Of a DNA stretch of 35,957 nucleotides, positions 1,492 to 6,031 are shown piece by piece. The notes under the pieces are model-generated. The model did no database searches. It saw nothing but the letters and a program-made list of their open reading frames with translations, and had not been told where the DNA came from. Each line of letters starts with the position of its first letter. The first letter of the stretch is position 1. This DNA is from a bacterium (lineage in GTDB: Bacteria; Planctomycetota; Planctomycetia; Pirellulales; Pirellulaceae). The stretch covers positions 1-35,957 of the forward strand of contig JANSWS010000025.1 of assembly GCA_024743355.1 (NCBI GenBank), written 5' to 3'. Position numbers and translations under genes: made by a program.

Positions 1492-2961
1492 ATGCGTTCA
1501 AAACGCCAAGTGAAACACGAGAGCTTTACGCAATCCTTGCTACCCGTGTTGCTACTGGGTTCCTTAGCCTCCGGGGTCTTTCTCGGATTGATTCTGGCCG
1601 GTCCTTTGGATTACGGCTTGCTCAGACGTTATTGCCTGAACCACCCAGTAGCCATTGCCTGCGTTTGTTTGTTCTTTGTGGGGATCATTACGCTGGTATT
1701 GAAATGGTACCAGGCGGTGGTACAAGCGGGTGCGACGCGAAAGGCAACGCTGGCGCTACACCAACTGACCATTGAGGGAGCGGAGATTCCGTCTCACCAA
1801 CGAGCGGAGTGGTTGGATGCCCACTGGCAGCGTCTGCATCGCGCGGTTGCTGAAAGCTGGATGGGTCGCCGACTAACCTCCGTGCTGGACCTTCAAATAC
1901 GTCGCGGCCGTCGACTTCAGTTGGAAGCGGACTTGCAATTGCTCAGCGATGCCGAAGCGGATCGTCAGCATGACAGCTATAGTCTGCTCCGCATTATCAA
2001 CTGGGCCATGCCGATGCTCGGCTTCCTGGGAACCGTGCTGGGCATCTCGCAGACACTGGGACAGCTCGACACGCAGATGCTTGCCTCGCAGCAGCAAGAC
2101 GCTATGAACCAGCTGACCGCTGGTCTCTATGTCGCGTTTGACACGACCGCGATTGCCTTGATCCTGACCGTGTTTTTGATGTTTCTGCAGTTTGGCGTCA
2201 GTCGCATCGAGCAGAGTTTGCTGTCCACCATCAGCATGGAATGCAATCCAGAATTGATCGCCTTCCTGGGAGCCGATCCCCACGATTCGCAATCCAGCCT
2301 CCTGGCCCCTGTCCGCGAGATGGCGGCCGACCTGGTTGCGGCAGTTCGCGAGTTGACCGAAAGCCAAGCCGAGATCTGGAGCCGTTCGATCAACGAAAGC
2401 CAGGAACAATGGTCGGATTGGACCATCCAAGCGGCTGAGACTATCGAGAACGGATTTGGTGAATCCCTGCGAGAATCCTTGGAAAAACACGTGTCCGGCA
2501 TGCAGTCGATTCAGAAGGACGCGCATTCGCATTTGGACGCCCGCTGGCAGCAGTGGCAAACAACTCTCAGCGAACAGGCTCGTACCATTCAAGGTCAGCA
2601 AAAGGAACTGGTTCGACAGACAGACGCTCTGCAAGGGCTGGCCGATGCCGTGCAGCAGTTGATCGGTCAAACCAGCGATCTGCAGAAACTCGAAGAAACC
2701 ATCAGTCAGAGTGTCGATCGCCTGAGCAAGCTCAATCATTTCGAAGAAGCTAGCCATTGCATGAGTGAGGCTGTCGCAGTCTTGGCTACCAGCCTGGAAC
2801 GAGCCGGATTGATTCGTGGGGCTCCTGTCCGTCCTCGCGTCAGCGGCGTTCGCGGAAAGAAGCATGAGCATTCAACTGACTGGGCAGCTGATACCGGCCC
2901 CGATAATGTGGAATCCGAAAAGCTATCGGCTAAAGATTCGATGAAAGGAAAAGCCGCATGA
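1492..2961 (+). CDS. MotA/TolQ/ExbB-family proton channel subunit with long coiled C-terminal tail
   Basis: The frame opens at a GTG at 1456, but the ATG at 1492 is preferred: GAGGAG lies at 1477-1482, nine bases upstream. This gives 489 residues. Four membrane segments are visible, near residues 16-38, 52-72, 167-188 and 211-236. The last two carry the family's signature: GFLGTVLGISQTL, then LTAGLYVAFDTTAIALI, with Thr residues facing the presumed ion path. Between segments 2 and 3 is a cytoplasmic helical region of about 95 residues. After residue 240 comes a tail of about 250 residues rich in Gln, Glu and Ser, predicted helical and probably coiled coil. Such channels form pentamers around paired single-pass partners and convert proton flow into motion. 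The next gene overlaps it by four bases (ATGA), so the two are probably co-translated. The tail recalls MotA-like ZorA, but no other Zorya gene is nearby. Family call firm; biological role unknown. Confidence 0.85.
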   Translation: MRSKRQVKHESFTQSLLPVLLLGSLASGVFLGLILAGPLDYGLLRRYCLNHPVAIACVCLFFVGIITLVLKWYQAVVQAGATRKATLALHQLTIEGAEIPSHQRAEWLDAHWQRLHRAVAESWMGRRLTSVLDLQIRRGRRLQLEADLQLLSDAEADRQHDSYSLLRIINWAMPMLGFLGTVLGISQTLGQLDTQMLASQQQDAMNQLTAGLYVAFDTTAIALILTVFLMFLQFGVSRIEQSLLSTISMECNPELIAFLGADPHDSQSSLLAPVREMAADLVAAVRELTESQAEIWSRSINESQEQWSDWTIQAAETIENGFGESLRESLEKHVSGMQSIQKDAHSHLDARWQQWQTTLSEQARTIQGQQKELVRQTDALQGLADAVQQLIGQTSDLQKLEETISQSVDRLSKLNHFEEASHCMSEAVAVLATSLERAGLIRGAPVRPRVSGVRGKKHEHSTDWAADTGPDNVESEKLSAKDSMKGKAA

Positions 2962-5048
2962 GCGGCTCAAAACGGAAACGCGAGTCCTTGGCTCCCAGCC
3001 TGTTTCCTTTTCTCGCGGTTTTGCTGTGCACCATGGGGGCTTTGGTTCTGATTCTGATGTTAGTCGTTTCAGCAGCCCAAGCCGATGCCGAGCAAATTGC
3101 GCAGCAGATCCAGGAACGCAAGGAGGAACTGGTCAGTCTGGCCGATCATGCCGTGGACTCCTATCGAAAAAAACTGGAGGACTCGCAGCTGGAACTGGAG
3201 AAGAAGCGGCTCCAGTTACAGCACTACGAAGAACACATCCTGGAACTGGCAAAAGAGCTGAAGGAACTCGAAGCACAACACGAACAAGCGCAGTCAGAAG
3301 AAGCAACCGCCGCCGATCTGGATCGTCATAAAGCCAAGATCTCTGAATTGGAAAGGCAGCTGGCTGAAGCCGAGGAAGAGCTAAAGGAACTTGAGAAGAA
3401 GCCCCAGGGCGACAAGCCGATCTTCGCGGTGATTCCCTATCGAGGTCCCAACGGAACCCACCGTCGTCCGATCTACCTGGAATGTACCTCGCAAGGCATC
3501 GTGCTGCAGCCTGAAGGTAACTTGATCAGCCTGCAAGATCTGCAGCCCCCGCATGGTCCAGGCAATCCCCTGGACGCAGCGTTGCGGGCGGTGCGGACTG
3601 AATACAAACCGGCCAATGGCGCAATTACGCGCACGGCTTACCCACTGCTGCTGGTGAGGCCATCCGGAATTCGCGCCTACGCGCTGGCCAGGTCGGCCAT
3701 GAGTGGCTGGGATGACCAGTTCGGCTACGAGCTGATCGAAGAAGAAATGGATCTGGCTTACCCCGAAGGCAAACCGGGTCTGCATGCAAAAGTCGAAGAC
3801 GCGTTGGCGCTCGCCCGGGAACGTCAGGCCGCATTGGTGATGGCCATGCCGGGAAGATATCAAATGGAACTGGATGACTTGTCGCCTTTGACGGGCAGTC
3901 AGGGTGGCGGCCGGGGAAGCCCAGCCACGGCGCGGGGTACTGGAGGATCGGCGGCGGGAGTCAACGCAACCGGCGGCTACGGCGGCTTGCCTGGATCGGC
4001 AAACGTGGCTGACTCGCAGAATCCTGGATCACGCTCCGCATCGGGCCCGAGCGGCATGGAAACGCTAACCACCAGCAATGCAGCGCCGGGAGATCGGCTG
4101 CTTGCCGGCGGGTCCGGCCAACCCGCAGGTCAAGCATTCGCCGATGGTACGGGGACCTTCGTGGAAGGCTCTTCGCCCATGTCATTCGAGGGCCAATCGC
4201 AAACTGGCAGCGATAGCAACTTCGGCTCGGCGGGGTCGGCATCCCCATCTGGAACGCTGGGTGCCCATAACCAAAATGGCGGCGGCCAAAGCGGTGGCAG
4301 CCAACCCCTTGCCGCGGGTTCGCTTGCATCATCGCCAACCTCCGCTGTAGCCAACGGAGCTGCAACGGACCAAAGCGGACAGGCTAATCAAGGACAGTTC
4401 GCAGCCTCTTCATCCAATGGCTCGGCCGAAGGCAGCGGAAGTTCTGCGGCTGCGTCGGGACAACCCGGACAATCTTCGGGAGACTCGACGACCTCGGCGG
4501 GAGCCCAGAGCGGGCAATCCTATCCCGGCATGTCGTCATCGATGGCCATGCAGAGCTCAAGCGGTAGTTCGACCCCCTCACCAACCGACTCCGAGATGGC
4601 GGAGCAGCAGGCAGCGCCGCAGTTCTCCATGAATGTGGATCTTTCAGATCGCGAACAGAATACGCGCCCCGTGGCAGCTGGCCGCGGTCGGGATTGGGCT
4701 TGGTCCGATGGTCCGCGCACACAAAACCCGATCGTCAGGTCGCTTTACCTGCACTGCTATGATGACCGTTGGATTCTGCTACCGGAAAACGGAAAACCCG
4801 ACCAAGGCTTTCTGATCCCTTTCGATGGAACGCCGGAAGAGCGGGCCGAGCTACTGGCGAAAGCTGTGCAGCGTCGCGTTGAAGAATGGGGATTCGCTTT
4901 GTCCGGCGGTTACTGGAAACCCGAACTGGTGGTCGACGTAGCTCCCGGCGCGGAATGGCGTTATCGACAACTCGTGCGACTGTTTGAAGGAAGTGGATTG
5001 GATATTCGCCAACGAACCAACACCGCCAGCCGCAGGGAGGCTCGATAG
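2958..5048 (+). CDS. Single-pass ExbD/TolR-like partner with duplicated extracytoplasmic domain and long low-complexity linker
   Basis: This 696-residue protein begins at the ATG overlapping the stop of the channel gene. Its order is: basic N-terminus; one membrane helix (about 13-39, FPFLAVLLCTMGALVLILML); charged coiled coil (about 42-150); a folded domain (about 155-305); a Gly/Ser/Ala/Gln-rich segment (about 314-565) with no predicted fold; and a second folded domain (about 590-690). The two folded parts look related: RPIYLECTSQGIVLQPEG matches RSLYLHCYDDRWILLPENG, and LLVRPSGIRAYALA matches LVVDVAPGAEWRYR. The topology matches TolR/ExbD, but the membrane helix lacks the protonatable Asp found in that family and in the next gene's product. 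It may serve as the non-conducting or stator-anchoring half of a heteromeric pair. The low-complexity part could span periplasm or bind wall or outer-membrane components. Role inferred only from context and topology. Confidence 0.75.
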   Translation: MSGSKRKRESLAPSLFPFLAVLLCTMGALVLILMLVVSAAQADAEQIAQQIQERKEELVSLADHAVDSYRKKLEDSQLELEKKRLQLQHYEEHILELAKELKELEAQHEQAQSEEATAADLDRHKAKISELERQLAEAEEELKELEKKPQGDKPIFAVIPYRGPNGTHRRPIYLECTSQGIVLQPEGNLISLQDLQPPHGPGNPLDAALRAVRTEYKPANGAITRTAYPLLLVRPSGIRAYALARSAMSGWDDQFGYELIEEEMDLAYPEGKPGLHAKVEDALALARERQAALVMAMPGRYQMELDDLSPLTGSQGGGRGSPATARGTGGSAAGVNATGGYGGLPGSANVADSQNPGSRSASGPSGMETLTTSNAAPGDRLLAGGSGQPAGQAFADGTGTFVEGSSPMSFEGQSQTGSDSNFGSAGSASPSGTLGAHNQNGGGQSGGSQPLAAGSLASSPTSAVANGAATDQSGQANQGQFAASSSNGSAEGSGSSAAASGQPGQSSGDSTTSAGAQSGQSYPGMSSSMAMQSSSGSSTPSPTDSEMAEQQAAPQFSMNVDLSDREQNTRPVAAGRGRDWAWSDGPRTQNPIVRSLYLHCYDDRWILLPENGKPDQGFLIPFDGTPEERAELLAKAVQRRVEEWGFALSGGYWKPELVVDVAPGAEWRYRQLVRLFEGSGLDIRQRTNTASRREAR

Positions 5049-5053
5049 CTCGG

Positions 5054-6031
5054 ATGAAGCGCAGCCACGCAGACGACATGGCGGTGGGCCAGGATTCCTT
5101 TCTGGACACAACGGCCAATCTGGTAGGAGTCCTGATCATCTTGGTAGTCGTTATCGGTACTAAGACCAAGATCGATGCTGTCGAATACGGCAAGCAACAG
5201 GCTGCTGCCGAAGCGGAATCACCGGTCGAGATCGAAGCCGCTCAGCGCGAGGCCAACGGTCTGGTGAACTCGCTCAATCAGCAGGCAGTGCGTCTTGCGG
5301 AGTACGAGCTGGAACTGGAATATCGGAAGAAGGAAAGAAACCTGCTGTTGGCTCAGGTATCTATGGCCCGAGAAGCAGTCCAGGAAAAGATCGATCAACT
5401 GGACTCGCAGAAGCGCGCCGAAGTAGAGCAAGCCTCACGCATCCGTGAATTGGAATCGCAGGTTTCCGAAGTCGAAGAACAGATTGGACAAGCGGACCTC
5501 GATCAGCGGCCAACGATTCTGTTAGAGCATCTGCCCACCCCGATGGCCCGCACTGTCTTCACCAAAGAGATGCATGTGCAACTCAAAGACGGGCAAGTAA
5601 CCGTCATTCCCTGGGACAGGCTGGTGCAGGCTCTCAAGGATCAAGTCCCACTGGCGGTACGCCGCAACGGCTCCCGACCGAGCATCGAAGAAACGCTTGG
5701 GCCCGTGGGTGGATTCCTCATGCATTATCGAATGATCGCTGTCTCCGGCGGATATGAATTGGAGCGTTTTGAGCTGGAAGCGACACCTACCGCGCCCAGT
5801 GAACCGCTGCAACTAGCCCTCTCATCCTCCGGTCGCTTACGTCTGGAACTTGCCAGCCGCGACCCGCATGAAACCGTGGTCACCGTCTGGGTTTATCCGG
5901 ACTCATTTGAGCAATTTCGCGCGCTCAAATCCAACATCTTCGACCAAGGCTTTTTATCGGCGGCGCGGCCACTACCAGACACCGTTCGCATCGGCGCTTC
6001 GCCGCGTGGCTCACGCAGCTCCGCCCAATAA
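5054..6031 (+). CDS. Single-pass ExbD/TolR-like partner carrying the membrane Asp
   Basis: This 325-residue protein starts at an ATG five bases after the previous stop; AGGGAGG at 5034-5040 is a plausible ribosome site. Residues 11-35 read VGQDSFLDTTANLVGVLIIL and onward. Asp18 sits at the mouth of the only membrane helix, as does the proton-carrying Asp of ExbD, TolR and MotB. Residues 50-145 form a coiled coil. The C-terminal half resembles the folded domain of the previous protein: MHVQLKDGQVTVIPWDRLVQ (about 173-192) and VVTVWVYPDSFEQFRALKSN (about 275-294) followed by a Gly-Phe turn. The likely role is the proton-binding stator partner of the 1492-2961 channel. It is the last gene of the operon, with a hairpin about 130 bases downstream. 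An OmpA-type peptidoglycan-binding domain, as in MotB, is not recognisable. Confidence 0.75.
   Translation: MKRSHADDMAVGQDSFLDTTANLVGVLIILVVVIGTKTKIDAVEYGKQQAAAEAESPVEIEAAQREANGLVNSLNQQAVRLAEYELELEYRKKERNLLLAQVSMAREAVQEKIDQLDSQKRAEVEQASRIRELESQVSEVEEQIGQADLDQRPTILLEHLPTPMARTVFTKEMHVQLKDGQVTVIPWDRLVQALKDQVPLAVRRNGSRPSIEETLGPVGGFLMHYRMIAVSGGYELERFELEATPTAPSEPLQLALSSSGRLRLELASRDPHETVVTVWVYPDSFEQFRALKSNIFDQGFLSAARPLPDTVRIGASPRGSRSSAQ

Follow-up and report, generated by a model that had tools for sequence, protein, structure and literature searches.

Three linked genes and their products

The window, meaning the whole 35,957-nucleotide stretch analysed here (contig JANSWS010000025.1 of assembly GCA_024743355.1, from a planctomycete of the family Pirellulaceae), carries near its start three co-directional genes that we call A, B and C. 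The sequence ATGA is common to the stop of A and the start of B, and B and C are separated by 5 bases. An original prediction made from the sequence alone had described this 4-base overlap and 5-base gap, and had taken B and C for single-pass proteins with coiled stalks; the coordinates and the anatomy were both right. The features are listed below. Residue counts in relatives, unless stated otherwise, were read from fixed alignment columns over 99 fetched loci, with the B site absent from view in 9 of these, the C site in 1 and the full triple of A, B and C sites in 11. Model confidence is given as the predicted local distance difference test (pLDDT).

1492..2961, + strand: gene A, MotA/TolQ/ExbB-type channel subunit, 489 residues (PF01618 match; ATG at 1492)
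2020..2043, + strand: A residues 177-184, GFLGTVLG, first pore motif including Thr181 (Thr181 in 88/89 visible A sequences)
2134..2160, + strand: A residues 215-223, AFDTTAIAL, second pore motif, holding Thr218/219 and an atypical Asp217 (alignment columns)
2212..2958, + strand: A residues ~241-489, long helical tail with a conserved C-terminal segment (alignment)
2958..5048, + strand: gene B, Asp-less single-pass partner, 696 residues (alignments; model pLDDT 69 with two folded domains)
3000..3068, + strand: B residues 15-37, transmembrane helix LFPFLAVLLCTMGALVLILMLVV, with no acid; the Ala20 codon, 3015-3017, is GCG
3468..3881, + strand: B residues 171-308, first folded periplasmic domain (model)
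3882..4637, + strand: B residues 309-560, disordered Gly/Ser/Gln-rich linker (pLDDT mostly <50)
4641..5042, + strand: B residues 562-695, second folded domain, an apparent copy of the first (hhalign and model)
5054..6031, + strand: gene C, Asp-bearing single-pass partner, 325 residues (alignments; model pLDDT 87)
5093..5161, + strand: C residues 14-36, transmembrane helix DSFLDTTANLVGVLIILVVVIG; the Asp18 codon, 5105-5107, is GAC
5564..5998, + strand: C residues 171-315, folded periplasmic domain (model; blocks mostly pLDDT >90)

The MotA/TolQ/ExbB signature predicted for A, with its two pore motifs and its tail of about 250 residues, is borne out by a match to PF01618 with an expectation value (E) of 5.6e-12 (46 bits, against a curated cut-off of 22.9), and 20/20 aligned A homologues match the same family at E up to 0.01. 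The pore threonines that mark the family are present in the last two helices, Thr219 in 88/89 visible sequences, and we take them to be equivalent to the Thr of ExbB. Asp217, an acid in the last helix, is found in 85/89 (otherwise Ala in 2, Gly in 1 and Asn in 1). An 'extra N-terminal helix pair' had also been predicted; the two hydrophobic stretches are present (residues 16-34 and 52-70), but they are extra only in comparison with ExbB, since the four-helix plan resembles that of MotA. Three of the four helices scored above threshold, and the GFLGTVLG helix was placed from its motif. From what is known of the family, the tail probably lies on the cytoplasmic side. Beyond a variable coiled stretch, its C-terminal segment (residues ~416-440; most relatives have FEETLHSL-AAVHLLTAR) shows strong conservation, which suggests a cytoplasmic partner.

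Comparison of the B and C profiles with hhalign showed homology extending over both helix and stalk (E 6.7e-13, prob 97.8), and the program, unaided, placed Ala20 of B on Asp18 of C. The conserved helix positions that match in this register are Phe18/Phe16, Ala20/Asp18, Cys24/Asn22 and Gly27/Gly25. Two acids lie in the C helix: Asp14, at the very start of the helix, and Asp18. The codons for B20 and C18 differ by two base changes; Ala and Asp codons are generally one base apart.

The model of C shows a helix at residues 14-54, a long stalk and a single folded domain with extra strands in its middle, and that of B shows a helix and stalk followed by two domains whose helices and strands come in a similar sequence. 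These two domains seem to be related, with prob 90 and E 1.4e-6 in one hhalign run and prob 58 and E 1.4e-5 in the other. The linker between them has a median length of 242 residues over 66 B sequences, as a rough estimate, and B could be an output arm because its second folded domain ends this ~250-residue disordered linker. Neither the window B nor 20 B proteins gave a match to the TonB or TolA families, and no OmpA-like peptidoglycan-binding domain was found in the window proteins, nor, at E up to 0.001, in the 20 proteins each of C and B that were scanned. The periplasmic domains of B and C did not align significantly with one another by profile comparison. Foldseek found no PDB match for either at E up to 0.001 (best 1.5e-2 for C and 1.8e-3 for B), and an ExbD fold for these domains was rejected on that result; the weak matches have what we take to be an RNase-H-like topology and were left uninterpreted.

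B and C had both been called ExbD-type, and this did not hold. In the window neither protein matches a Pfam family above cut-off, PF02472 (ExbD/TolR) gave no match at E up to 0.001 in any of 20 C proteins or of 20 B proteins, and a PF02472 search of the own genome gave no match at the A-B-C locus. Alignment to the local ExbDs by hhalign was not significant for C, nor for B (prob 7.8), though B was aligned in register. The Asp that ExbD/TolR proteins carry early in their one helix is present in C and, but for two sequences, missing from B. By the profile tests run, both proteins fall outside the ExbD family.

Linkage and the alanine/aspartate split

Three-gene synteny, which the original prediction had named as a support, is seen widely among planctomycetes. 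The order A-B-C was found at 19/19 loci from genomes of the class Planctomycetia, fetched beyond the own genome and chosen for their B match, and at 70/80 loci from a C-profile scan of named genomes, in which the best 80 of 389 relatives were taken. The 4-base A-B overlap is kept at 64 of the 70, and at the remaining 10/80 loci the contig ends close to C, cutting off either A or both A and B. The titles of these best 80 are planctomycete names, one being just 'bacterium'. In a phylum sample of 294 genomes, the N-terminal 298 residues of B as query gave matches at E up to 0.001 in 40, many of them weak; these include 20 of the 21 class genomes, the own genome among them, with G105 giving no match. 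In a class sample of 297 Planctomycetia genomes, matches at E up to 0.001 were obtained in 251 with the C profile and in 261 with the B profile; these counts are possibly inflated, as the weakest matches may reflect coiled coil alone.

Position 18 of C is Asp in 98/98 visible sequences and is invariant in 57/57 sequences of the C alignment. Position 20 of B, visible in 90 loci, is Ala in 87, Thr in 1 and Asp in 2. Read as the triple A217/B20/C18 (88 visible), the loci divide into D/A/D 82, D/T/D 1, A/A/D 2, G/A/D 1, N/D/D 1 and D/D/D 1. The pattern of Ala20 in B and Asp18 in C is far beyond chance. In more distant families of the class, where the helix residues were read by eye off printed motifs, B has Ala at six of eight loci, Thr at one and Ser at one, and C has Asp at 11/11. 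The ExbDs of the own genome and of relatives, counted over proteins caught by a pattern and leaving out loci with no pattern match, comprise 30 distinct sequences (33 with repeats), all with the Asp. The original prediction would have been refuted by a conserved acid in the B helix of relatives or by the three genes not being conserved together; both were checked and neither was found, the exceptions being two B proteins with Asp (L089 and L148) and one family (f108) in which A is missing from the B-C locus.

A second planctomycete family repeats the split. It comprises B' of ~264-276 residues (motif FPF-L/M-S), C' of ~370 residues (SLLDTM) and an A' that starts with a zinc-ribbon-like stretch (below the Pfam cut-off in the one tested). 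B' is homologous to B (E 3.8e-26) and C' to C (E 5.7e-31), and the first folded domain of B aligns with that of B' at E 2.5e-9. At the Asp position B' has Ser in 12/12 sequences; C' has Asp in 6/6 aligned sequences and at all of the 11 loci, out of 12, where the pattern caught C'. The residue of A' equivalent to Asp217 is Asp in 9 of the 11 A' read and Asn in two, alongside B' Ser. The 12/294 phylum genomes with B' are also the ones with strong C' matches (E <1e-40), and in five of these (G048, G069, G181, G227 and G238) C' lies far from A'B' with both still kept. Two loci, L210 and L213, encode more single-pass proteins with the helix motif LELLLDTICN, another type of Asp-bearing relative.

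Gene neighbours were not informative. Clustering placed no family in more than 32/100 loci, and the most frequent one usually lies on the other strand, so the idea of a conserved neighbour that might reveal function was dropped, none being common to most loci. A minority of loci have an HTH_17 protein (424 residues) and a 112-residue protein divergently upstream of A (for example L038:9570-11235). In the window itself, ten other open reading frames scanned, at 6274-35517, are ordinary-looking; two have no family, and the rest encode an aminotransferase, an ABC ATPase, a 3-keto-disaccharide hydrolase, a Ser/Thr kinase, two sulfatases, a Fer2/FAD oxidoreductase and a PSCyt1/PSCyt2/PSD1 protein.

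Loci that depart from the split

The two loci with Asp at B20 are L089 and L148. In a tree built from the joined A, B and C columns both nest within Asp-less clades with support 1.0 (the sister of L148 is L138), so that B would most simply have regained its Asp twice. Both B proteins carry the same pair of changes, Pro17 to Ser or Thr and Ala20 to Asp, and the pore motifs of the accompanying A proteins are altered, to GILGGI and ALDVLAM in L089 and to GLLGTV and FNTT in L148. Among 88 loci, these two alone lack Phe at A residue 178, which points to contact between B20 and the A pore. A change at A181, 217, 218 or 219 is seen at 7/88 loci, including both that regained the Asp, with a chance value of 0.0055 from a test that was framed after the data had been seen and that ignores kinship (the sisters L138 and L148 are both among the seven). 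At a further locus, L075:3977-8396, a MotA-like gene lies near two proteins with SLSFLDA helices, the first of which has a von Willebrand A domain (PF13519); this set may show a two-Asp state.

A different departure is seen in the genomes of one family, f108. C matches are kept in 11/11 of these without the SFLD motif, and the Asp is absent with it; in L264 Gly replaces Asp in an otherwise recognisable C helix. The FPF motif is likewise absent from 9/9 of the B genes read (that of L271 is a fragment), and one hydrophobic helix is kept in each of the B and C proteins. Several of the B helices have a Glu near the start. B and C are neighbours at the nine loci read (L261, L263-L266, L268 and L271-L273), and the A profile found no match in the nine longer f108 B-C stretches. 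In f108 genomes L280-L291 there is one weaker A-like protein each (12/12), with motifs GFIGTVEGI and FDST, and its gene lies away from B-C in the 10 genomes where the place of B-C is known. The third-helix motif of this protein, GFIGTVEGI, has a Glu within it, and the protein is possibly a separate motor type. Since these genomes have no linked A, lack the Asp and still keep B and C as neighbours, the simplest reading is that the C Asp would be kept for a linked channel and that B and C would share a bond of their own.

Known systems and the proposed place of B in a putative motor

The nearest parallel in gene content is AglRQS, the Myxococcus gliding motor, in which one MotA-type gene is followed by two different TolR-type genes, just as A is followed by B and C. 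Passages of PMC9389320 and PMC3169522 describe the two unlike TolR-type partners and leave undecided whether they form a mixed axle. PF02472 covers both AglQ and AglS, and each is described as having the conserved Asp, whereas the window's B and C lie below Pfam cut-offs and B has no Asp. The own genome likewise encodes an exbB-exbD-exbD set, again one A and two unlike B genes, but with Asp in both ExbDs. The mixed pair had been predicted to be a new arrangement. One A gene with two unlike B genes is already known from these two sets; the new part is the conserved Asp-less partner, of which our searches of the open-access PubMed Central literature brought up no description (extracts of which, beyond the papers cited in this section, also came from PMC12505986, PMC2754498 and PMC11890865).

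ExbBD and TolQR share with A-B-C a PF01618 ring protein and a single-pass Asp-bearing partner, and by analogy a 5:2 architecture; A-B-C differs from them in its Asp-less second partner, its long A tail and its periplasmic domains unmatched to ExbD/TolR. GldLM offers another precedent, for an axle subunit (GldM) without an essential axle acid: according to the relevant part of PMC8986121, the essential acid is a Glu in the own helix of the ring protein GldL. GldM, however, is a dimer of one protein, and C keeps its invariant Asp.

Among solved structures, the A profile matched chains 8vvn and 8vvi best, with coiled-coil similarity contributing; both entries are named in a Zorya paper, from which they are probably ZorA. 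The long tail of ZorA is a point of likeness to A, but A scores 19.7 bits against an NCBIfam ZorA cut-off of 500 bits, and neither ZorB nor an effector was seen in the three genes. PADLOC, which lists no cut-offs, gave weak ZorA/ZorB matches, the best at E 0.0014. Zorya, Tol-Pal, Ton and the flagellar stator were rejected, as profile cut-offs were not reached and partners are missing in the three genes; the predicted lack of OmpA, TonB, TolA and Zorya genes from the set agrees with this, no model having reached its cut-off. Defence systems are patchy in distribution, unlike A-B-C, and because the set is present in most sampled class genomes its task would be a core envelope one rather than defence.

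A belongs to the channel family, the three genes are linked, the helices of B and C share ancestry and align in register, and the Ala/Asp split is conserved. The reading towards which we lean, by analogy with characterised motors, is that A, B and C would together make a proton motor of the 5:2 type whose axle pairs B with C and has a single carboxylate. Five A subunits would make the ring, and one B helix and one C helix in its pore the axle. C would be the proton carrier through Asp18, the sole axle carboxylate; the B helix is a relative of the C helix with Ala fixed at the Asp position; and B, with its second domain on a ~250-residue disordered tether, would serve as an arm transmitting force to a target farther away in the envelope. 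We infer the presence of B in the pore, its 1:1 pairing with C, rotation or stepping, and the output of force. The strongest support for a mixed axle comes from the common ancestry and register of the helices, from the split being fixed in two families and from the Asp having been regained at that very site. In the TolAQR scheme, as set out in part of PMC12905483, two Asp residues exchange protonation at each 36-degree step. Because one carboxylate cannot run this exchange, a single-carboxylate axle would be expected to need roughly half the protons per turn, or to act as a ratchet. A wider claim, plausible though we incline slightly against it, is that rotary motors with an obligately asymmetric axle, C being the sole axle carboxylate and B an acid-free arm, are widespread, occurring in at least two Planctomycetota gene families, and are powered at every second 36-degree step, with ~5 protons per turn as against 10.

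Several points weigh against a mixed axle. The placement of B and C in the pore is by analogy, since their profiles are not significantly related to canonical ExbD. The co-variation of B20 with A consists of two events, and 5/86 loci with Ala or Thr in B, including L138, are also altered at A181, 217, 218 or 219; part of the co-variation could stem from fast evolution in general, as L138 is the sister of L148, whose terminal branch is the second-longest of 90 (that of L089 ranks 26th). The A-like protein of L075, near its two Asp-bearing partners, has Phe at the equivalent of residue 178. The A-like protein of the f108 genomes might act in trans. A handful of genomes match just one of B and C strongly, for example B only in G380 (99% complete) and G494 (95%), and C only in G436 (68% complete).

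The main rival of the mixed axle is a homodimeric axle of two C copies, carrying two Asp on the pattern of ordinary 5:2 motors, with B outside the ring as an arm like TonB or TolA. We judge this unlikely, if well short of negligible. B has the plan of such an arm (one helix, a stalk, a long tether and a terminal domain), the TonB and TolA helices bind ring subunits and not the pore in the account given in part of PMC12905483, and the helix of an outside arm needs no acid. Against this stand the relatedness of the B helix to the C helix, in register with it, the two reversions of B20 to Asp, and the retention of the motif in B' proteins too short to leave room for a tether and second domain. 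It is a good deal less probable that A has taken over the acid from B, at Asp217 in the last helix, in the manner of GldL, with the C Asp as one of several motor acids. The prevalence of Asp at this site in A and A' would fit, as would the Glu that GldL carries in its own helix (PMC8986121, in part) and the Asn found at A217 of L148, where B has regained its Asp. Yet L137, L147 and L156 combine Ala20 in B with Ala or Gly at A217, two A' have Asn despite Ser in B', L089 keeps Asp217 though the Asp of B is back, and Asp18 of C is the sole invariant acid of the three sites. A strict rule by which Asp moves between A and B was rejected on L137, L147, L156, L089 and L075.

Two further arrangements seem more doubtful still. 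One A gene could serve two complexes, a non-conducting or structural A5B2 and a conducting A5C2, a choice equally open for AglQ and AglS in the relevant part of PMC9389320; we regard this as improbable, B and C remaining neighbours where A is unlinked. Least probable is an A-B-C that is no motor, acting as an envelope scaffold or as a gated channel without rotation. It would accord with the failure to find an output partner among the neighbouring families, but the conserved pore Thr and C Asp fit proton coupling, and the C Asp is absent where A is unlinked.

If the mixed axle is correct, its implications extend beyond this locus. The stepping models for ExbBD, TolQR and MotAB, in the part of PMC12905483 that treats them, invoke two alternating acids, and a natural motor with one acid would test that need directly. 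It would likewise test the proton cost of each step, and whether sets like AglRQS use mixed axles. For the Planctomycetia, A-B-C marks an uncharacterised envelope machine in most of the genomes sampled.

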